The notes under the pieces were generated by a model. It ran no database searches, was not told the DNA's origin, and worked only from the letters and a program-made list of their open reading frames with translations. Positions 1 through 29,292 of a stretch of DNA of 35,337 bases are shown here, one piece after another; positions within the stretch are counted from its first letter, which is position 1, and every line of letters begins with the position of its first letter. Source of the DNA: a virus; the IMG/VR virus record IMGVR_UViG_3300045961_000264, positions 1 to 35,337 of that record. One strand, 5' to 3'. The position numbers and the translations under genes were made by a program.

Positions 1-30
1 GGTTTCAAGCGGGGATTTATAAGGGTGTAT

Positions 31-45
31 GTTACAAACAGTTAC
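31..45 (+). repeat. GTTAC-N5-GTTAC paired direct repeat, copy 1
   Basis: GTTAC occurs at 31-35 and 41-45, exactly 10 bp (one helical turn) apart. The 15-base string TTACAAACAGTTACA (32-46) is identical to copy 2 at 1937-1951, and copy 3 at 2194-2208 keeps the same spacing. Copies 2 and 3 sit next to predicted promoters, which suggests a protein-binding operator or activator site. The binding protein is unknown. Confidence 0.55.
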
Positions 46-214
46 AAAAAAAAAATTAACTACAATAATAATGAATCATAAAGGATTTCCCCTGGAACAC
101 CCTTGGGAACCCCCCATGTGTTATGGTGAGTAGTGCTGTAAGTGTAAGGGTGACTTTTGGAAAAAAGCGTTATGAATCAACGAGTTAGCTTGTGGTGCGA
201 TGGGTACGACGGCG

Positions 215-249
215 GGGACGGCGTGGTGTAGTGCTGCCCACGCCGTCCC
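215..249. other. Perfect 12-bp inverted repeat (stem-loop)
   Basis: GGGACGGCGTGG (215-226) is perfectly complementary to CCACGCCGTCCC (238-249), with an 11-base loop. No U-tract follows on either strand, so it is not a classical intrinsic terminator. It could be an RNA-stabilising 3' structure for the leftward operon, a protein-binding site or part of a replication signal. Confidence 0.55.
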
Positions 250-387
250 ATCTGCCCACGTTTCCGCCCAGCAAAACGGGGAGCTCGGCCGCGCTTGTTG
301 CGGGAAAGCAACAACTGCCGGCTAAATGTTACAGAAATTGGGGGACTGTAACGGGAATTGTTACGAATCCCCAAAAGTCGCCCTTCG

Positions 388-409
388 CGTATCGTGCGGA
401 TTGTCCCCC
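388..409. repeat. 22-bp inverted repeat, left arm
   Basis: Positions 388-409 are the exact reverse complement of 1687-1708, with 22 of 22 bases matching. The two arms flank the three leftward genes at 432-1645. If transcription starts at the promoter near 1902-1930, both arms lie in one mRNA, one in the 5' leader and one in the 3' tail, and could pair. Confidence 0.7.
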
Positions 410-410
410 A

Positions 411-425
411 GGGCCCGAAGGCCCC
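411..425 (-). terminator. UUCG-tetraloop hairpin after the leftward operon
   Basis: On the minus strand GGGCC-TTCG-GGCCC forms a five-pair stem with the stable C(UUCG)G loop. It begins about 7 bases after the TGA of the 204-aa gene. No run of U follows, so it may work as an mRNA 3'-end stabiliser or a weak or factor-dependent terminator rather than a strong intrinsic one. Confidence 0.4.
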
Positions 426-431
426 ATTCTG

Positions 432-1046
432 TCACATTGGCGCTTCCTCCTCGGGCTCGTCGCCCTCGTCTGCATCGCCGTCCTCGCCGTCGTCCTCGTC
501 ATCCAGCTCATCCAGCATATCCGCCGCATTGACGCGGGATGCCGCCGCGCGCTCCGCCTTGATGTCGGCGATCGCCCGGATGATGGCTTCGTTCTTGCCC
601 AGATTCGCGAGGACATCCTTCCGCTCGACATTGTGCTTGTCCATCATCTTCTTGATGATAGCCTCGGCACCCGCCAGATCCACGCCCTTCACGCGCATCA
701 GGGCCATCAACGTCAGCCCAGCATCCCCGCCAGCCCGCTCACCGCCCGCGGCCTTGCGGCCCCAGACAACAACCGACTTGTCGGCATAATGCGTCATGAT
801 CTCCACGATGGCCGACCAGCGCTCTTCGAGCGTGGGCGGTTTGCCGGTGATCTTATCGGTCGACTTCGCGCCCGCGTCCTCGAACGTGGATTTCCACCCC
901 TTGAGCGTGGCCACGGAATTGCATTCGAGGGATGCTTCCCTCGGGTGAAACTTGCGTTCACCCAGGGCGCAATACCCGCGGATGCTGCCATCGTACATCA
1001 CTTCCCACTTGATGGGGTTGACGCGCTTCTTCGTTTCGTTTGCCAT
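432..1046 (-). CDS. Hypothetical protein with acidic C-terminal tail (204 aa)
   Basis: The function is not recognised. I chose the ATG at 1046 because GGAGAG lies 6 bases upstream; the in-frame ATG at 1058 overlaps that ribosome-binding site and has none of its own. The N-terminal half is mixed and basic, with several Lys/Arg-rich stretches. The middle to C-terminal part looks helical, and the last ~26 residues are almost all Asp/Glu (DELDDEDDGEDGD and onward). Such tails occur on phage single-stranded DNA-binding proteins such as T7 gp2.5, but I see no definite OB-fold signature, so that role is only a possibility. It is the last gene of the small leftward group and is followed by a UUCG hairpin. 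A tandem hairpin leader precedes it. Confidence 0.75.
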   Translation of the reverse strand: MANETKKRVNPIKWEVMYDGSIRGYCALGERKFHPREASLECNSVATLKGWKSTFEDAGAKSTDKITGKPPTLEERWSAIVEIMTHYADKSVVVWGRKAAGGERAGGDAGLTLMALMRVKGVDLAGAEAIIKKMMDKHNVERKDVLANLGKNEAIIRAIADIKAERAAASRVNAADMLDELDDEDDGEDGDADEGDEPEEEAPM

Positions 1047-1060
1047 GTTGCTCTCCATAT

Positions 1061-1102
1061 CGGGCAGGGTTGCCCTCCCGAGCGGGCAGGGTTGCCCCTG
1101 CC
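1061..1102 (-). promoter_or_regulatory. Tandem stem-loops in the leader of the 204-aa gene
   Basis: CGGGCAGGGTTGCCC occurs twice as a direct repeat (1061-1075 and 1083-1097). On the mRNA-sense minus strand the promoter-proximal unit forms GGCAGGG-GCAA-CCCTGCC (1085-1102), a seven-pair stem with a GNRA tetraloop. The second unit can form a related stem just before the GGAGAG ribosome-binding site at 1051-1056. The spacer between the two genes is only 62 bases, so the hairpins fill most of it. A translational control or protein-binding element is plausible. Confidence 0.45.
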
Positions 1103-1108
1103 ATCGGG

Positions 1109-1345
1109 TTATCGCGGAAGGTCTGCCATCCTACCAATCGCTTTTGGCAGTTGCTCCCTGACCAGCCCATACGCCAGTCCTTCCGCGACAAGATCGTCCA
1201 GCTTGCGTAGGCACACCTGCAGGCTTTGTGCTCGCAGCCGCACTTTTGCGCTGTTGATCTCGTCAGGCGTTTTCACCAGCAGATCAAGGCATTGCTGCGT
1301 TAATCCACGTATTGCCCACAAAACCAGTTCCTCATGTGTCAGCAT
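1109..1345 (-). CDS. Small hypothetical protein (78 aa)
   Basis: The protein is not recognised. It begins MLTHEELVLWAIRGLTQ and appears fully alpha-helical, with alternating charged and leucine-rich segments and no membrane span. A weak AAGG lies about 8 bases before the ATG. It sits 24 bases after the 91-aa gene and 62 bases before the 204-aa gene in the same orientation, so the three probably share one early transcript. A small regulatory or host-interaction protein is possible, as is common for early podovirus genes, but nothing in the sequence proves it. Confidence 0.6.
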   Translation of the reverse strand: MLTHEELVLWAIRGLTQQCLDLLVKTPDEINSAKVRLRAQSLQVCLRKLDDLVAEGLAYGLVREQLPKAIGRMADLPR

Positions 1346-1369
1346 GATTATCGCCTTCAGTCGGGGGAA

Positions 1370-1645
1370 TTACACTTCGACGCGTTCGGTCAGCAGCCGG
1401 ACCATATCGAACTTGAACACGGTGGCGAGCACCTTGTCGGTGAGTTCGGGATCTTGCGTGGCGCCCAATGCTTCGGCCAGGGCAGCGTGATCGATCAGAC
1501 GCTGTTGAGCGCCCGACAACTCAAACACGCCATCCTCACCATAAACGGCTTTCAGCCCTTTGATGCGCAGCCGCACGGTATGCTGGGCTGGCGTATCAAT
1601 CGCGCTGGGATAGTCGTCGTCGCGGTAAGCTTGTTTCGTTGCCAT
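1370..1645 (-). CDS. Small hypothetical protein (91 aa)
   Basis: The protein is not recognised. It starts at the ATG at 1645 (MATKQAYRDDDYPSA), supported by GGAGAG at 1651-1656. The longer frame reaching back to 1702 lacks a ribosome-binding site and runs through the 22-bp inverted repeat, so I did not use it. The protein is charged, mixed alpha/beta and soluble, with a VRLRIKGLKAVY strand-like segment and a C-terminal helical part. It is the first gene of the leftward trio and has a ~250-base untranslated leader if the promoter at 1902-1930 is used. Confidence 0.65.
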   Translation of the reverse strand: MATKQAYRDDDYPSAIDTPAQHTVRLRIKGLKAVYGEDGVFELSGAQQRLIDHAALAEALGATQDPELTDKVLATVFKFDMVRLLTERVEV

Positions 1646-1686
1646 ATCATCTCTCCGTTCGGCCCGCGCGGGATGCGCGGCGCTCG

Positions 1687-1708
1687 GGGGGACAATCCGC
1701 ACGATACG
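1687..1708. repeat. 22-bp inverted repeat, right arm
   Basis: This is the exact reverse complement of 388-409. It lies 41 bases upstream of the ATG of the 91-aa gene, inside the predicted untranslated leader of the leftward transcript. Identity stops abruptly at both ends, so the repeat is a discrete unit and not part of a longer duplication. Confidence 0.7.
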
Positions 1709-1901
1709 GAAACCTATGTTGAATTGTTAAAGATAGCCGCCTCGGACACCGCAATGGCGCCTAGCTCGCATCGGTATCGCTACCGTTATCGCATCATCGC
1801 ACGCCCGCCGGTGCCACGTCAACCCCAGGATAACCCTATATGCGGGTATGGTGCTGTGGTGTCGGTGTCGGTGTCGGTCGGGTTGTTGCTGCGATGGATG
1901 A

Positions 1902-1930
1902 ATAATCGGCGTCTTCGATCGCCACGTCAA
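1902..1930 (-). promoter_or_regulatory. Predicted leftward sigma-70-type promoter
   Basis: On the minus strand TTGACG (1930-1925) is followed after exactly 17 bases by GATTAT (1907-1902). That is 5 of 6 and 4 of 6 matches to consensus with ideal spacing. A GTTAC pair (1936-1950) ends 5 bases upstream of the -35. The start would be near 1895, driving the genes at 1645-432 with a ~250-base leader. Confidence 0.5.
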
Positions 1931-1935
1931 TCGGT

Positions 1936-1950
1936 ATTACAAACAGTTAC
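1936..1950 (+). repeat. Paired TTAC direct repeat, copy 2
   Basis: ATTAC (1936-1940) and GTTAC (1946-1950) are 10 bp apart. Fifteen bases (1937-1951) are identical to copy 1 near the left edge. The pair abuts the -35 of the predicted leftward promoter, a usual position for an activator or repressor site. Confidence 0.5.
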
Positions 1951-1954
1951 ATCT

Positions 1955-2070
1955 GTCCGATGCGCATGGTGCATGCGCGCGCTGCGTGTCACGCGCAGTA
2001 TCGCACGCCTGCGCGACAACGCACGCCTGCACGCACGTAAGGCGCCCCCGGGTGCAGGCGCGCGCGTGGG
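1955..2070. other. GC-rich cluster of short repeats and hairpins
   Basis: CGCACGCCTGC is directly repeated at 2002-2012 and 2020-2030. The second copy, extended to 2032, pairs with GTGCAGGCGCGCG at 2052-2064 with one mismatch. GCGCAT (1962-1967) pairs with ATGCGC (1973-1978), and GCGTG-T-CACGC lies at 1984-1994. The block is followed by AT-rich DNA. That combination is seen at some phage origins and at regulatory switches, but there is no direct proof of either. Confidence 0.35.
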
Positions 2071-2193
2071 TGCGTCTGGGGGTGGGTGGGGGGCAAACGA
2101 GAAAATTTACTCTTGGATTAGTGCCCCACCTACATTTTGCGTTTGACTTTCAATGTAAGCGCGAATAATTTTAGTTTTGTGCGCTCGTACTGT

Positions 2194-2208
2194 GTTACAA
2201 AATGTTAC
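2194..2208 (+). repeat. GTTAC-N5-GTTAC paired direct repeat, copy 3
   Basis: GTTAC at 2194-2198 and 2204-2208 are 10 bp apart, as in copies 1 and 2. The pair ends 11 bases upstream of the -35 of the strong rightward promoter, so a bound protein would lie on the upstream face of RNA polymerase or compete with it. Confidence 0.5.
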
Positions 2209-2219
2209 GCTTTTCTAGC

Positions 2220-2248
2220 TTGACTTTTATACTGCGCGCCCATATAAT
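2220..2248 (+). promoter_or_regulatory. Near-consensus rightward sigma-70 promoter, apparently leaderless
   Basis: TTGACT (2220-2225), a 17-base spacer and a perfect TATAAT (2243-2248) precede the ATG at 2255 by only 6 bases. The expected transcription start therefore falls at or next to the A of that ATG, with no room for a Shine-Dalgarno sequence. Either the first late gene is translated from a leaderless mRNA, or its true start is further downstream. Confidence 0.7.
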
Positions 2249-2254
2249 CCGGCC

Positions 2255-2926
2255 ATGCCCGCACCACAGCTCCCGCCCTCCGCCGACGCTTTCGCCGCCG
2301 AGGTCGCCGCCAGGCGCCATACCCCGATTGACGTGGACGCGATGCTGGCGAACATGGCCGCCGAGGGTCGGAAGACCGCTACCGAGATGATCGGGCGCGG
2401 AAGCTACCCCAGCGTCCGGCCCCCCGCCAAGGTCCGCTACTCCCACGACGCAATGGCGCGGCTGCTGCTCGAGAATCCCTGGATGCACCAGAATGACCTC
2501 GCGGCATACTTCGGCCGGTCCCCCGGCTGGATCTCCACGATCATCACCTGCGATGCGTTTCAGGCGCATTACGCCAGCCTTCAGGCCGAGATGCTCGACC
2601 CCGAGCTGCAACTCACGCTGCGCGAACGCTTCAAGGCGTTGACGGAACAAAGCCTGCGCGTGCTGCAGGAGAAGCTGTCCAAGCCGGCCGACCAGGTGAG
2701 CGAGCAGCTGGCCCTCCGAGCCGCCGACCTGGGCGCAAAGAGCCTGGGCCTTGGCGGCAACGCACCAGCTCCTGCAGCCCCCAACCCAGCCGAGTACTTG
2801 CCCGCGCTTGCCGAACGTTTGCTGCGTTTGCAGGGCGGCGCTCGCCAGGGCGTGTCCGACGCGAAGCTTGTGTATGAGGCAGCCGACCTTCGGTCGGCGG
2901 TCCCACAACAAAATCCGGACGCCTAG
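2255..2926 (+). CDS. Helix-turn-helix protein, probable terminase small subunit
   Basis: This 223-aa protein has a central helix-turn-helix (about residues 79-100, NDLAAYFGRSPGWIS) followed by helices with the pattern DAFQAHYASLQ...DPELQLTLRERF. The arrangement matches small phage DNA-binding proteins usually annotated as small terminase subunits, which recognise the packaging site and activate the large subunit. The long C-terminal helices could mediate oligomerisation; the last ~55 residues are Ala/Pro-rich and less ordered. It is the first late gene, directly behind the strong promoter and with no ribosome-binding site. The large terminase lies 4 kb away, separated by the tailspike, which is less usual. 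A transcription regulator is the main alternative. Confidence 0.6.
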   Translation: MPAPQLPPSADAFAAEVAARRHTPIDVDAMLANMAAEGRKTATEMIGRGSYPSVRPPAKVRYSHDAMARLLLENPWMHQNDLAAYFGRSPGWISTIITCDAFQAHYASLQAEMLDPELQLTLRERFKALTEQSLRVLQEKLSKPADQVSEQLALRAADLGAKSLGLGGNAPAPAAPNPAEYLPALAERLLRLQGGARQGVSDAKLVYEAADLRSAVPQQNPDA

Positions 2927-2975
2927 CCTTCCGCGACTGCTTCGGCAGTCGTTTCTTCTTCAGGAGCTTACCGCC

Positions 2976-3152
2976 GTGGCCACCAACGCAAAAGTTCAGC
3001 CGAACCCCTGGGGCGACCCCAAGGCCCCGATCGCCGTCTCTGGCAACCGCAAGGGCCCGCGCGCGAAGGAAGCATCCCCCGGCCCCGCCGAAGCACCGCC
3101 GACACCAGCCCGCCCCACTCGCATGCGCTACAACATGGCCGGGGGCAAGTAA
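2976..3152 (+). CDS. Small proline-rich basic protein (58 aa)
   Basis: The protein is not recognised. I chose the GTG at 2976 because AGGAG (2962-2966) lies 9 bases upstream; the longer open frame upstream only overlaps the preceding gene in another frame. It is Lys/Arg-rich with a Pro/Ala-rich middle (GPAEAPPTPARP) and ends with a positively charged, methionine-containing tail (TRMRYNMAGGK). It looks disordered. Its stop codon directly abuts the ATG of the tailspike gene, so the two are translationally linked. Small proteins at this position are common in podovirus late operons, but no role can be assigned. Confidence 0.55.
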   Translation: MATNAKVQPNPWGDPKAPIAVSGNRKGPRAKEASPGPAEAPPTPARPTRMRYNMAGGK

Positions 3153-6768: not shown

Positions 6769-7010
6769 CCACCGCGAAGTCTTTCCCCTTTGACGCTCTT
6801 GGCGGTCGCCGCTGGCTTTCAGCGGTCGGCCTCACAGTCGTCTCGACCTGGCTTGCCCGCACTGGTACTATCTCTGGCGATGCCTGGGTCAACTTCCAGA
6901 CATTTCTTTACGGCATCTTCGCTTTCGCCAACATCGGCCAGCGCGGCATCGAAGCCGCTCGCGATGTGAAGATGCCCTCCAGCGAAGCTCCCCCCGAAGC
7001 CTCCAAGTGA
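6765..7010 (+). CDS. Small membrane protein, holin candidate (81 aa)
   Basis: The start is the GTG at 6765, sharing GTGA with the preceding stop. Two hydrophobic segments are visible (about residues 17-33, LSAVGLTVVSTWLA, and 44-58, FQTFLYGIFAFANIG), with a charged, Pro-rich C-terminal tail. Size, two membrane spans and a hydrophilic tail fit a class II-type holin. No endolysin gene is seen nearby, so the assignment rests on topology alone. Its stop overlaps the GTG of the large terminase gene in GTGA. Small membrane proteins next to terminase genes are common in podoviruses. Confidence 0.55.
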   Translation: MTTAKSFPFDALGGRRWLSAVGLTVVSTWLARTGTISGDAWVNFQTFLYGIFAFANIGQRGIEAARDVKMPSSEAPPEASK

Positions 7011-8497
7011 CCGCCGTCGCCCTCACCCCAGACCTGATCGAGTCGTTCGCCGGCGTCTACTTGTCGCCGATGTACGATTCTCCGGTCCCAACTCCGCAGC
7101 TTCACCGCGACTGCTGGTCGCTGTACTGCGAGCCGGTGACGTATGCAGCAGTTGCGGCACCTCGCGGGCACGCCAAAAGCACTGCCCTCACGCACGATTT
7201 CGGCCTGGCGACCGCCCTCTTCCGCGTTGAAGACTACATCGTGATCGTCTCTGCGACGGAGGACCTCGCAATCCAGCATTTGGGCGACATCGCCACCGAG
7301 CTGCGCGAAAACGAGGACATCCAGCGGGATTTCGCCGTCGATAAGCTTGTCACTGATGCCAAGACCGACATCGTCGTCCGCTTCAAGGACGGCCACGAGT
7401 GCCGCTTCATCGCGAAGGGTTCTGGCCAGAAGATGCGCGGCATCAAATGGCGCGGCAAGCGTCCTGGCCTCATCATCTGTGACGATCTGGAGGAAGATGA
7501 GCAGGTTGAATCGCGGGACCGCCGCACCAAGTTCGGCCGCTGGTTCCGCCGGGCCCTCCTGCCCTGCCTGCGCAAGGGCGGCAAGGTCCGCATGCACGGC
7601 ACGATTCTGCATGAGGAGGCTCTCCTCGCCCGCGTGATCCGCGGTAAGGTCGCTGGCGAATCCGGCGCAGCCCGGAAAAGCTGGAAGACACTCATCTTCC
7701 GGGCCCACCGCTCGTTTGACGACTTCACCCAGATCCTCTGGCCCGAACAGTTCTCCGAAGAGCGCCTCCGGGAAATCCAAAATGAGTTTATATCTGACGG
7801 TGACGCAGCAGGCTATTCTCAGGAGTATCTCAATGATCCTCGAGATAACGCGGAAGCTTATCTTCGTCCGGAAGACTTCGTCGCAATGTCTGAAGCTGAT
7901 CGCCGTGCGGACAAGACGCACTCTGTCGGCTGCGACTTCGCCGTCAGCAAAGCCGACTCCGCCAACCGAACCAGCTTCACTGTCGGTGGACGGACCGTCT
8001 ACAACCGGACATGCATCGTCGATCAGCGAGTCGGCCGGTGGGACACTGCCGAGTGGATCGACGTGATGTTCGAGATCCAGGAACGCTACGATCCCGACAT
8101 CTTCTACGTGGAGGATGGTGTCATTTGGAAAGCGGTTGCCCCGACGATCTACCGCGAGATGCGCCTGCGCGACAAGTGGCTCAACTGCGTGCCTTTGCTC
8201 CCCGTCAAGGACAAGGCCACGCGCGGCAGACCTTATCAAAAGCGGATGCGCGCTGGCGCGGTCGTTTTCGATAAGGATGCCTCCTGGTACCCCGGCTACG
8301 AGGCCGAGAACCTGGCGTTCACAGGCGTCAGCGAGGCGAAGCTCGACGACCAGTTCGACTCGACCGCCACGCTCTTCCTCGGGCTCGACCGGGCGCCGGA
8401 TCTTGAGGACGAAGACTTCGAATCCGACGAAGACCGCGACATGCGCGAGAACGATCCGCGCTTTGGCCAGGGTCGGTCTACAGTGACTGGATATTAG
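7007..8497 (+). CDS. Terminase large subunit
   Basis: This 496-aa protein is the ATP-driven DNA-packaging motor and nuclease that docks on the portal. The N-terminal ATPase has Walker A APRGHAKST (residues 51-59), Walker B LIICDDLEED (155-164) and a downstream MHGTILHE segment that fits the coupling motif. The C-terminal RNase H-like nuclease has candidate acidic residues D311 (GCDFAVS), E370 (YVEDG) and D452 (DDQFDS). The length is normal for the family. It starts with GTG in a GTGA overlap with the holin candidate, so expression is probably tied to the upstream chain. A stem-loop overlapping its TAG stop may end this transcript. The APRGHAKS type of Walker A is shared with several podovirus terminases. 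Confidence 0.92.
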   Translation: MTAVALTPDLIESFAGVYLSPMYDSPVPTPQLHRDCWSLYCEPVTYAAVAAPRGHAKSTALTHDFGLATALFRVEDYIVIVSATEDLAIQHLGDIATELRENEDIQRDFAVDKLVTDAKTDIVVRFKDGHECRFIAKGSGQKMRGIKWRGKRPGLIICDDLEEDEQVESRDRRTKFGRWFRRALLPCLRKGGKVRMHGTILHEEALLARVIRGKVAGESGAARKSWKTLIFRAHRSFDDFTQILWPEQFSEERLREIQNEFISDGDAAGYSQEYLNDPRDNAEAYLRPEDFVAMSEADRRADKTHSVGCDFAVSKADSANRTSFTVGGRTVYNRTCIVDQRVGRWDTAEWIDVMFEIQERYDPDIFYVEDGVIWKAVAPTIYREMRLRDKWLNCVPLLPVKDKATRGRPYQKRMRAGAVVFDKDASWYPGYEAENLAFTGVSEAKLDDQFDSTATLFLGLDRAPDLEDEDFESDEDRDMRENDPRFGQGRSTVTGY

Positions 8498-8736: not shown

Positions 8737-10824
8737 ATGCTAAACCTTCTGTCGCCAATCACGCTCACTCCAGCGATCGCCAAGTCGCCCAATCTCACCG
8801 CCGAGTTTGGGCCCGAAGACCTGCGCTCGATCGGCGAGTACGTCTGGCTGGGCTACCAGGAGGACCGCAAGTCCCGCCACACCTGGGAGCAGCGCTCGGC
8901 TGCCGGCATGGATCTGGCGATGCAGGTTGTCCAGGAGAAGACCTTCCCTTGGCCCAATTGCTCGAACGTCGCATTCCCGCTCGTCACGATCGCCGCCCTG
9001 CAGTTCCACGCTCGCGCCTATCCCTCCATCGTCTCAGGCACTGACGTTGTGCGCTGCCGGGCCGCCGGCTTCCAGCCTACCCCGCAGGAGCAGGCGACCG
9101 CCGACGAGGTTGGTCGCTACATGAGCTACCAGGTCCTCGAGGAGGATACCGCCTGGGAAGAGGGCACCGACCGCCTCCTGCTCAACTACTCCATCGTCGG
9201 TTGTGCCTTCAAGAAGTCTTACTACGACGCGCCGGAGATGCACAACGTCTCCGAACTCGTCCTGGCGCAAGATCTGGTCATGGACTACTTTGCCAAGTCG
9301 GTCGAGACTTGCCGCCGGAAGACTCACGTTTTCCCCCTGCATCGCAACGACATCATTGAGGGCTGCCGGGCCGACTCCGCCAAGTATCACGACGTCACCA
9401 AGGAGACCTGGTTCACCGCTCCGGCCCAGCCCATCGCTGACAACATGCCGAAGCGCGATGGCACCAAGCCGCCGCTCAACGCCCCGGCTACCCCCTTCAC
9501 CGCCCTCGAGCAGCATTGCTGGCTCGACCTCGACGGCGACGGCTACGAAGAGCCCTACATCGTCACCATCGAAGCCCAGACCCACACCGTCCTGCGCCTT
9601 GTTGCTAGGTGGGAGCGCGACGAAGACATCTCACGTAACAGGGCTAAACAAATTGTCTCGATCCGCGCGACGGAGTACTTCACCAAGTACGGCTTCATCC
9701 CGGCCCCCGACGGCTCCATCTACGACATGGGCTTTGGAACTCTTCTGGGCCCTCTCAACGAGTCAGTCAGCTCGGCTATCAACCAGCTCATCGATTCTGG
9801 GACAATGGCCATTGGGGCTGGCGGATTCCTGGGGCGTGGCGCCAAGATTCGTGGTGGTGTATATACTTTCGCTCCGTTTGAGTGGAAGCGAGTCGACTCC
9901 ACCGGCGACGACCTCAGCAAGTCTATCTACCCACTTCCTGTGCGGGAACCCTCCCAGGTACTTTTCTCTCTCCTATCCCTTCTGATCGACTACACCAACC
10001 GCATCTCCGGCGCAACCGAGACGATGGTTGGCGAGAACCCCGGCCAAAACACTCCCGCCGAGACCTCTCGCTCGATGGTCGAGCAAGGCATGAAGGTCTA
10101 CGCCGCCATCTTCAAGCGGACGTGGCGTGCCATGAAGGAGGAGTTCCGCAAGCTCTACATCCTCAACGGTTTCTTCGCTCCGGTGCGCTACCGCCATCTG
10201 TTCCTGGGCGATCCGAACCGCATCTGCCCAGCCGCCGACCCCAACATTGTCTCTGACAGCGAGCGCTTCGGCCGTGCTGCCGCAATTGCGCAGCGCGCTG
10301 CCACTGTCCCTGGTTACGATCCAGCGGCCGTCGAGACCAACTTCCTTCGCGCTCTGCGCATCGAGAACCCGCAGCAGTTCTACAAGGGCATCGACCCGAA
10401 CGCTCCGCCTCCCAAGGACCCGCGCGTCCAGGTTGCCGAGATGCGCATGCAGGTCGATATGGCCAAGCTGCAAAACGCCCAACAGGAGTTCGTGGCTACC
10501 CTCATCGAGGACCGCCGCCTCAACCAGGCCGAAATGGTCAAGATGCAAGCCGAGGTCGTTCTTCTCCTCGCGCAAGCCCAAGATGCCGGCGACAATCGCG
10601 AGATTGTTCGCATGCAGACCGCACTCGCGATGATGAAACAGCGCGACGAAGCTATCCGTGGTAAGGTCGACCACCTTCTCAAGCTAATGGAGTTGCAAAG
10701 TGAGCCAGACAGAAAACCCGTTGATTCTGGAGCAGTACAACGACTGGTTAACGCACCCGGTGACGGTGGCGCTGAACCGATACTTGCGCCAGCAGCGGGA
10801 GCTCCTGAAGGAGCAATGGGCTAA
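8737..10824 (+). CDS. Portal protein
   Basis: This 695-aa protein should form the dodecameric ring at the unique vertex through which DNA enters and leaves. The region KTFPWPNCSNVAFPLVTIAA (near residues 70-90) is a recognisable signature of podovirus portals, and the middle part (LNESVSSAINQLIDSGTMA; PAETSRSMVEQGMKV) fits the clip and stem segments. Residues ~565-655 are a long amphipathic helical or coiled-coil segment rich in Met, Gln and Lys. The final ~40 residues are Ala/Pro/Gly-rich and are encoded in DNA that also encodes the start of the next gene. The ribosome-binding site is weak, and the leader before it is highly structured. Confidence 0.88.
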   Translation: MLNLLSPITLTPAIAKSPNLTAEFGPEDLRSIGEYVWLGYQEDRKSRHTWEQRSAAGMDLAMQVVQEKTFPWPNCSNVAFPLVTIAALQFHARAYPSIVSGTDVVRCRAAGFQPTPQEQATADEVGRYMSYQVLEEDTAWEEGTDRLLLNYSIVGCAFKKSYYDAPEMHNVSELVLAQDLVMDYFAKSVETCRRKTHVFPLHRNDIIEGCRADSAKYHDVTKETWFTAPAQPIADNMPKRDGTKPPLNAPATPFTALEQHCWLDLDGDGYEEPYIVTIEAQTHTVLRLVARWERDEDISRNRAKQIVSIRATEYFTKYGFIPAPDGSIYDMGFGTLLGPLNESVSSAINQLIDSGTMAIGAGGFLGRGAKIRGGVYTFAPFEWKRVDSTGDDLSKSIYPLPVREPSQVLFSLLSLLIDYTNRISGATETMVGENPGQNTPAETSRSMVEQGMKVYAAIFKRTWRAMKEEFRKLYILNGFFAPVRYRHLFLGDPNRICPAADPNIVSDSERFGRAAAIAQRAATVPGYDPAAVETNFLRALRIENPQQFYKGIDPNAPPPKDPRVQVAEMRMQVDMAKLQNAQQEFVATLIEDRRLNQAEMVKMQAEVVLLLAQAQDAGDNREIVRMQTALAMMKQRDEAIRGKVDHLLKLMELQSEPDRKPVDSGAVQRLVNAPGDGGAEPILAPAAGAPEGAMG

Positions 10825-29272: not shown

Positions 29273-29292
29273 TGCGCATAATTGCGCATTTT
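29273..29292. terminator. Bidirectional intrinsic terminator between convergent genes
   Basis: TGCGCA-TAAT-TGCGCA (29273-29288) is a perfect six-pair stem with a four-base loop, followed on the + strand by TTTT (29289-29292). On the minus strand the stem is preceded by AAAA and followed by TACGC-type sequence with little T, so it is stronger rightward. It ends the late transcript, and the leftward gene's TGA (29294-29292) touches it. Confidence 0.7.

Follow-up and report, generated by a model that had tools for sequence, protein, structure and literature searches.

A perfect 22-bp inverted repeat flanking a short leftward operon in a phage contig is best read as the closing helix of a leader–trailer module that resembles the one around bacterial rRNA (rrn) operons but encloses phage protein genes, with the leader handed over from a first partner, element I, to a second, element II, and the operon isolated or processed as a result; we assign this reading a probability of roughly 0.6. 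Judged from its sequence, the short early phage mRNA probably folds its two ends together in the way that precursor ribosomal RNA does.

Genomic context of the leftward operon

The window, meaning the whole stretch of 35,337 nt that was analysed, is a linear IMG/VR record, a metagenomic contig that is probably incomplete. Rightward genes span 2255–29268, including a terminase (7007–8497) and an SU10-like portal (8737–10824), and leftward genes, DNA polymerase among them, begin at 29292. The leftward operon under study (432–1645; Table 1) points away from the rightward block. Relatives were taken from a terminase profile search, which yielded 80 IMG/VR contigs; the terminase of one of them, L024, is 74% identical to that of the window. 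Homologs of gene 3 occur in 12 relatives and a homolog of gene 1 in L024 (30% identity, 2e-7), so on the evidence of these sequences the operon is real and lies on the minus strand. The three operon proteins had no match in Pfam, PHROGs or PADLOC, a structure model of gene 3 was of low confidence and without a useful structural match, single-protein scans of viral contigs with genes 3, 1, 4 and 5 returned no relatives, and positions 1–3000 of the window had no match in Rfam.

Behind gene 3 lies an untranslated region with a T-rich/A-rich core (1–431), which contains a perfect 12-bp hairpin at 215–249. Regions of the same kind follow the gene 3 operon in L102 (5085–5455), L104 (4560–4720), L105 (4610–4843) and L026 (1–300), with long inverted repeats flanking the core in L102 and L105; by sequence, this is a possible replication origin. 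The operon is also flanked by a tandem site, TGTAAC-N4-TGTAA, of which 15 bp are identical at 32–46 and 1937–1951 (−), just upstream of a −35, and which presumably resembles the binding site of an OmpR/PhoB-type regulator. Similar tandem TGTAAC-type sites are found at L084 1415 (−), L024 185 (−) and L026 1451 (+).

Table 1. Features of the leftward transcript in the window, listed along the minus strand from the outermost promoter candidate to the trailer arm
Feature	Position	Strand	Evidence or remark
Second promoter candidate, TTGACG -17- GATTAT	1902..1930	−	Consensus match only; start near 1895
Probable promoter, TTGACG -18- GATGAT, TG before −10	1793..1822	−	Consensus match; start expected near 1786
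boxA-like element TCTTTAACAATT	1722..1733	−	Matches E. coli rrnB boxA at 12/12 nt
Leader arm, putative 5′ arm of closing helix	1687..1708	−	Perfect complement of 388–409; counterparts in L024 and L084
Hairpin CCGCGC-AUCCC-GCGCGG, between leader arm and Shine–Dalgarno	1664..1680	−	Identical in L084, analogous in L024
Gene 1, 91 aa	1370..1645	−	Homolog in second bracket of L024
Gene 2, 78 aa, orphan	1109..1345	−	No relatives found
Hairpin GGCAGGG-GCAA-CCCUGCC, between gene 2 stop and element I, adjoining the latter	1085..1102	−	Same in L084
Element I, weaker leader partner, just upstream of gene 3	1067..1084	−	Homologous element in L084 (88% DNA identity)
Gene 3, 204 aa, acidic C-terminus	432..1046	−	Bracketed in both window and L024
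Hairpin GGGCC-UUCG-GGCCC, after gene 3 stop, directly before trailer arm	411..424	−	Sequence
Element II, trailer arm, putative 3′ arm of closing helix	388..409	−	Complement of leader arm; pairing computed

Properties of the inverted repeat

The left arm, CGTATCGTGCGGATTGTCCCCC (388–409, +), has its exact reverse complement at 1687–1708, and both the coordinates and the sequences that an earlier note on this DNA gave for the two arms are borne out. The same note described the arms as ending abruptly; the perfect 22-bp core stands, but a weaker match runs on both ways, inward to 27 nt with two mismatches and outward to 31 nt in total with one wobble and one mismatch. It had also placed one arm in the 5′ leader and the other past the last stop codon, and this is where they lie, 42–63 nt before the first start codon and 22 nt after the stop. 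Direct masking of the first Shine–Dalgarno sequence by the closing helix is not predicted: a stretch of 42 nt with a hairpin in it separates the end of the leader arm from the first start codon, and the Shine–Dalgarno stays uncovered.

Perfect pairs of at least 22 bp are expected by chance at 1.4e-5 within 4 kb and at 1.4e-7 within the 1.45-kb transcript. When the window was simulated 60 times with a first-order Markov model, the longest inverted repeat was 17, and the next longest perfect one in the window itself, with arms at most 4 kb apart, is 13 nt, which makes the 22-bp pair the sole one of its kind. The 22-mer is without internal symmetry and occurs in exactly two copies in the window, a third being absent there at up to three and at up to five mismatches. 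The exact 22-mer had no copy in 2.9 million viral contigs, nor had a 20-mer of the repeat in 84,980 genomes; plasmid matches to the left-arm region were weak and were judged to be chance. No target-site duplication is found beside the arms, whose flanks (TTCG/CGTATC and GATACG/GAAA) have nothing in common, and no transposase was found among the genes searched, which cover part of the window, in agreement with what had been noted before.

A boxA-like element and candidate promoters

The leftward transcript carries the boxA-like element TCTTTAACAA, with the leader arm 15 nt behind it; the E. coli rrnB boxA region used for comparison was read from the K-12 record. The core TCTTT(A/T)ACAA is common to the leaders of the window, L084, L024 and L041, and among all sites of this core in the 1.58 Mb of sequence scanned a comparable arm follows, at 9–25 nt, only in the leaders of the module. 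L041 has a boxA and no clear long helix: the arm of its boxA leader scores only 31, and a possible trailer arm is cut off by the contig end. In that leader (912–1006), boxA is followed by CTCCTATCTCCTAT, which is complementary to the Shine–Dalgarno sequences of the following genes. A check for boxB and boxC in the window found a hairpin (CGGTA-GCGA-TACCG, 1772–1785) preceding boxA and recognised no boxC sequence.

Transcription probably starts near 1786, because a −10-like GATAAT/GATGAT element recurs before boxA, at 67 nt in L084 (968–963), 54 nt in L024 (1763–1758) and 59 nt in the window. The start near 1895 that had been proposed earlier is retained as the second candidate on its consensus match, and 1786 is likelier given the recurrent −10. 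Either start puts both arms in the RNA, provided that transcription passes 388.

The module in related phages

The module was seen in three genomes only: the window, L024 and L084, whose contig ends inside gene 3. In L024, read leftward, TCTTTAACAA at 1703 is followed 9 nt behind by arm A (GATACATCCCTTCGCTGTGGGTGTCATCCG, 1684–1655). Next come, in this order, a small ORF, the homolog of gene 3 with its stop at 801, and arm A′ (793–764). The A/A′ helix covers 30 nt with no mismatch (27 Watson–Crick and 3 G–U pairs), 18 bp of it perfect. Directly adjoining A′ is arm B (765–743), followed by the gene 1 homolog (691–374) and arm B′ (354–332); B and B′ pair over 23/23 nt (21 Watson–Crick and 2 G–U) and form a second bracket around the next gene. 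Ahead of gene 3, L024 has a further element (1484–1466), which pairs with the 3′ half of the leader arm (1664–1646) along 19 nt. The L084 leader is homologous to that of the window (79% over 117 nt, extending well outside the arm); the L084 arm forms a 19-nt pairing, interrupted by one mismatch, with an element that precedes gene 3 (556–538). Between the leader and element I of the window, 18 nt contain 15 Watson–Crick pairs, 1 G–U and 2 A–C mismatches (p 0.007).

The order promoter, boxA, arm, hairpin, Shine–Dalgarno, gene, stop, hairpin, arm is the same in the window and L024, and in L084 up to element I. Hairpins lie between leader arm and Shine–Dalgarno in all three phages, and likewise between stop codon and trailer arm (3/3, L084 being visible to element I only). 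What is encoded between leader and element I varies: 91 + 78 aa (window), about 73 aa (L084) and at most 52 aa (L024). DNA identity between the window and L084 is 79% for the leader, 88% for element I and 71% for gene 3; by this comparison, the non-coding parts, leader and element I, are what is kept between the two. Relatives with gene 3 and without boxA (L026, L027, L104, L105) had no long arms.

Long inverted repeats in L012, L043, L051, L053, L055, L072, L077, L082, L086 and L095–L097 first resembled a bracket and were rejected as multi-copy palindromic sites. Each of L072, L055, L076, L077, L086, L095, L096, L097, L051 and L082 has its own multi-copy long palindrome, with arms of 15–20 nt, often GTAAT by the centre, and a sequence that differs from phage to phage. 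L012 42824–48108, the early region of Alcaligenes phage vB_Af_QDWS535, holds many copies of the palindrome TCCTAATATTAGGA, which from their sequence are probably operators. Sites identical or near-identical to the bacterial centromere parS (TGTTTCACGTGAAACA) were found in L043 (5306 and 6948, flanking the gene 3 operon), L053 (5152, 6206, 7184, 8502), L012 (47934), L027 (775), L082 (5492) and L086 (6322).

Pairing of each leader with its own partners

Pairing was scored as ungapped complementarity; whole-segment RNAduplex energies were dropped as too GC-driven to discriminate, and a control that compared direct with inverted repeats across all relatives gave no information, owing to palindromes. 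Leaders scored 34.5 (I) and 59.5 (II) with their own elements in the window, 43 (I) in L084, and 55 (I) and 71.5 (II) in L024, where the second bracket scored 56. Foreign combinations of leader and element reached at most 35, except for the L084 leader with window element II (46), because these two leaders are homologous. Among random 60-nt segments of relatives, 43 was reached in 9/3000 and 59.5 in 0/3000. The leader, counted with its opposite-strand mirror, ranks top among all segments in the window and in L024; within L084 it does not stand out, a score of 43 not being unique in that genome.

Arm sequences differ fully from those of the window in L024 and partly in L084, and each pairs with its own downstream element. 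One two-sided change, A–U to C–G, distinguishes helix I of L084 from that of the window. Pairing with different arms is found in the window, L024 and L084 (helix I), three genomes only, and within this comparison the sequence is replaced while pairing is kept. The wobble or A–C imperfections in the L024 helices are all G–U on the leftward transcript (7 versus 0); over all helices the ratio of G–U to A–C is 8:3, which is not significant. The core of the earlier proposal, that the mRNA closes through its two arms, is thereby supported by the very check that the note had named as able to refute it: the arms change together in relatives, with new sequences forming the L024 helix and the two-sided change in the leader–element I helix of L084. 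The pairing probability computed for the window is 1.00. As a whole that reading is supported in part: an RNase III site, shielded ends or linked translation, the consequences it suggested, may follow, and it had missed boxA, the hairpins by the arms, the second L024 bracket and element I, which competes for the leader ahead of gene 3.

Folding predictions and a proposed mechanism

Folded alone, the leader is no more stable than shuffles (z 0.65). Partition functions, computed without ribosomes and proteins and from folding energies that overstate pairing in GC-rich RNA, gave leader–I pairing of 0.99 in the window, 0.87 in L024 and 0.93 in L084 when the RNA ended after element I. When it included element II, leader–II pairing was 1.00 in the window and L024, and leader–I pairing dropped to 0.00 and 0.06, respectively. 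Ribosomes translating the operon could hinder closing of the helix.

We propose that transcription would start near 1786 and that the emerging boxA, by analogy with rrn operons, would bind NusB/NusE and keep the leader near RNA polymerase. As element I is made, the leader arm is predicted by the folding model to pair with it, looping out genes 1–2; as element II is made, the leader is predicted to pass to it and form the perfect 22-bp helix, a pairing backed by the comparison of phages, with the whole operon looped out. The long duplex would then isolate the operon from the untranslated region beyond and would probably act as an RNase III cut site or as end protection, while boxA would keep the polymerase going through region 1–431. 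The sequences themselves show the complementary pairs, where they lie, their replacement with pairing kept in L024, and the boxA match; from these we infer that the operon is transcribed, that Nus factors bind, that the helix closes in the cell and that the polymerase passes through 1–431. RNase III processing of the helix is plausible, and the module would probably serve to isolate or process cistrons. More tentatively, some tailed phages may copy the co-transcriptional folding of rrn on early mRNA: a boxA-tethered leader would be passed from trailer to trailer (I, II, further tandem brackets) with each finished cistron, the genes would be looped out in turn and cut or protected as units, and the bracket sequences would evolve freely with pairing kept.

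Alternative explanations

The alternative that we consider least unlikely accepts that the arms pair in the mRNA and takes TCTTTAACAA for a promoter −35 or a chance likeness, with pairing serving ordinary mRNA stability without Nus factors. A promoter scan does list TTAACA -18- TATCGT over boxA and arm in the window, but L024 and L084 have no −10 at that distance, another −10 is conserved 54–67 nt upstream, and the 12-nt match covers more than a −35. It is also unlikely that a small mobile cassette carrying phage genes, intact or as a remnant, has the arms as its terminal inverted repeats, which would match within a phage because both ends belong to one element. The earlier note had raised such a remnant, and the exchange of bracketed genes fits it: these genes differ between phages, and gene 1 lies in the first bracket of the window and in the second of L024, so elements could swap as units. 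The idea is disfavoured by the missing target duplication, transposase (in the part of the window searched) and further copies in the contigs and genomes screened, by nested partners I and II using one leader arm, by the fixed place of boxA beside that arm, and by window/L084 leader homology reaching well beyond it.

Slightly more doubtful is a reading of the arms as two copies of a DNA-binding site, an operator, in both flanking intergenic regions, inverted relative to each other by chance. Both regions also have the tandem site TGTAACTGTTTGTAA, and intergenic palindromic sites in multiple copies occur in several relatives; against this, the 22-mer lacks internal symmetry and has exactly two copies, the arm pairs of L024 and L084 are also inverted with other sequences, all three L024 brackets are inverted, and the G–U bias in L024 falls on one strand. 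That the repeat has no function and arose through an inverted template switch or during assembly is very improbable: mutation does yield short inverted duplications and the record is a metagenomic contig, yet the same anatomy recurs with other sequences in two independent contigs. Least probable of all is a recombinase switch that inverts the DNA between the arms, for which the geometry alone speaks (two 22-bp sites in inverted orientation at a distance of 1.3 kb, with the promoter outside them). No recombinase was found among the genes searched, which are part of a probably fragmentary contig; promoter, boxA and leader lead directly into the operon, no relative was seen in the inverted orientation, and arm sequences differ among relatives.

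Comparison with known systems

The closing-helix reading finds its nearest parallel in rrn operons. The E. coli pre-16S rRNA forms a long leader–trailer helix behind boxA, of which more than 17 bp are needed, and rrn boxA is thought to keep the leader near the polymerase until the trailer emerges (PMC10250234). Shared with that system (PMC10250234) are the boxA sequence, an arm close behind it, small hairpins beside the helix, and a helix of more than 17 bp around the transcribed unit, which is 22 bp and perfect in the window and 30 nt in L024. The phage module differs in that it lies in a phage genome and encloses translated protein genes instead of rRNA, has arms that vary between phages, and has a second, nested partner (element I) competing for the leader. 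Since there is no Rfam match and protein genes lie inside, it would work like an rrn module without being an rrn operon. In rRNA, the idea that boxA tethers the leader up to the appearance of the trailer is difficult to examine because ribosome assembly depends on it; if our reading is true, a small phage mRNA with a built-in competitor would be a simple system for studying tethering, hand-over and RNase III processing, and would represent a novel route by which a phage borrows Nus factors, no N-like protein being known here.

Outside rrn, boxA occurs in the mRNAs of suhB and of a ParE-like toxin gene, where it represses translation (PMC5725501). These share a boxA in the mRNA leader with the phage module; the closing helix proposed for the phage has no counterpart described for those mRNAs in the sections of that source covered here (PMC5725501). 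In the icaR mRNA of Staphylococcus aureus, pairing of the 5′ and 3′ untranslated regions is cut by RNase III, so there, too, both ends of one bacterial mRNA pair intramolecularly; the short UCCCCUG motif of icaR covers the Shine–Dalgarno, whereas the phage helix has 22 bp, precedes a hairpin of its own and an uncovered Shine–Dalgarno, and comes with boxA (PMC3868564).

A short, partial literature search found no report of a boxA/leader–trailer module in phages. The long-range closing predicted for this short mRNA is shared with hok-family mRNAs, but there the 5′–3′ fold-back silences a toxin until the 3′ end is trimmed. The RNase III separation of early phage cistrons proposed here has its counterpart in T7 early mRNA, but the T7 sites are local hairpins between genes. 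From its sequence, the phage module would combine on one early operon what is known singly elsewhere: a boxA, a leader–trailer helix and 5′–3′ UTR pairing.
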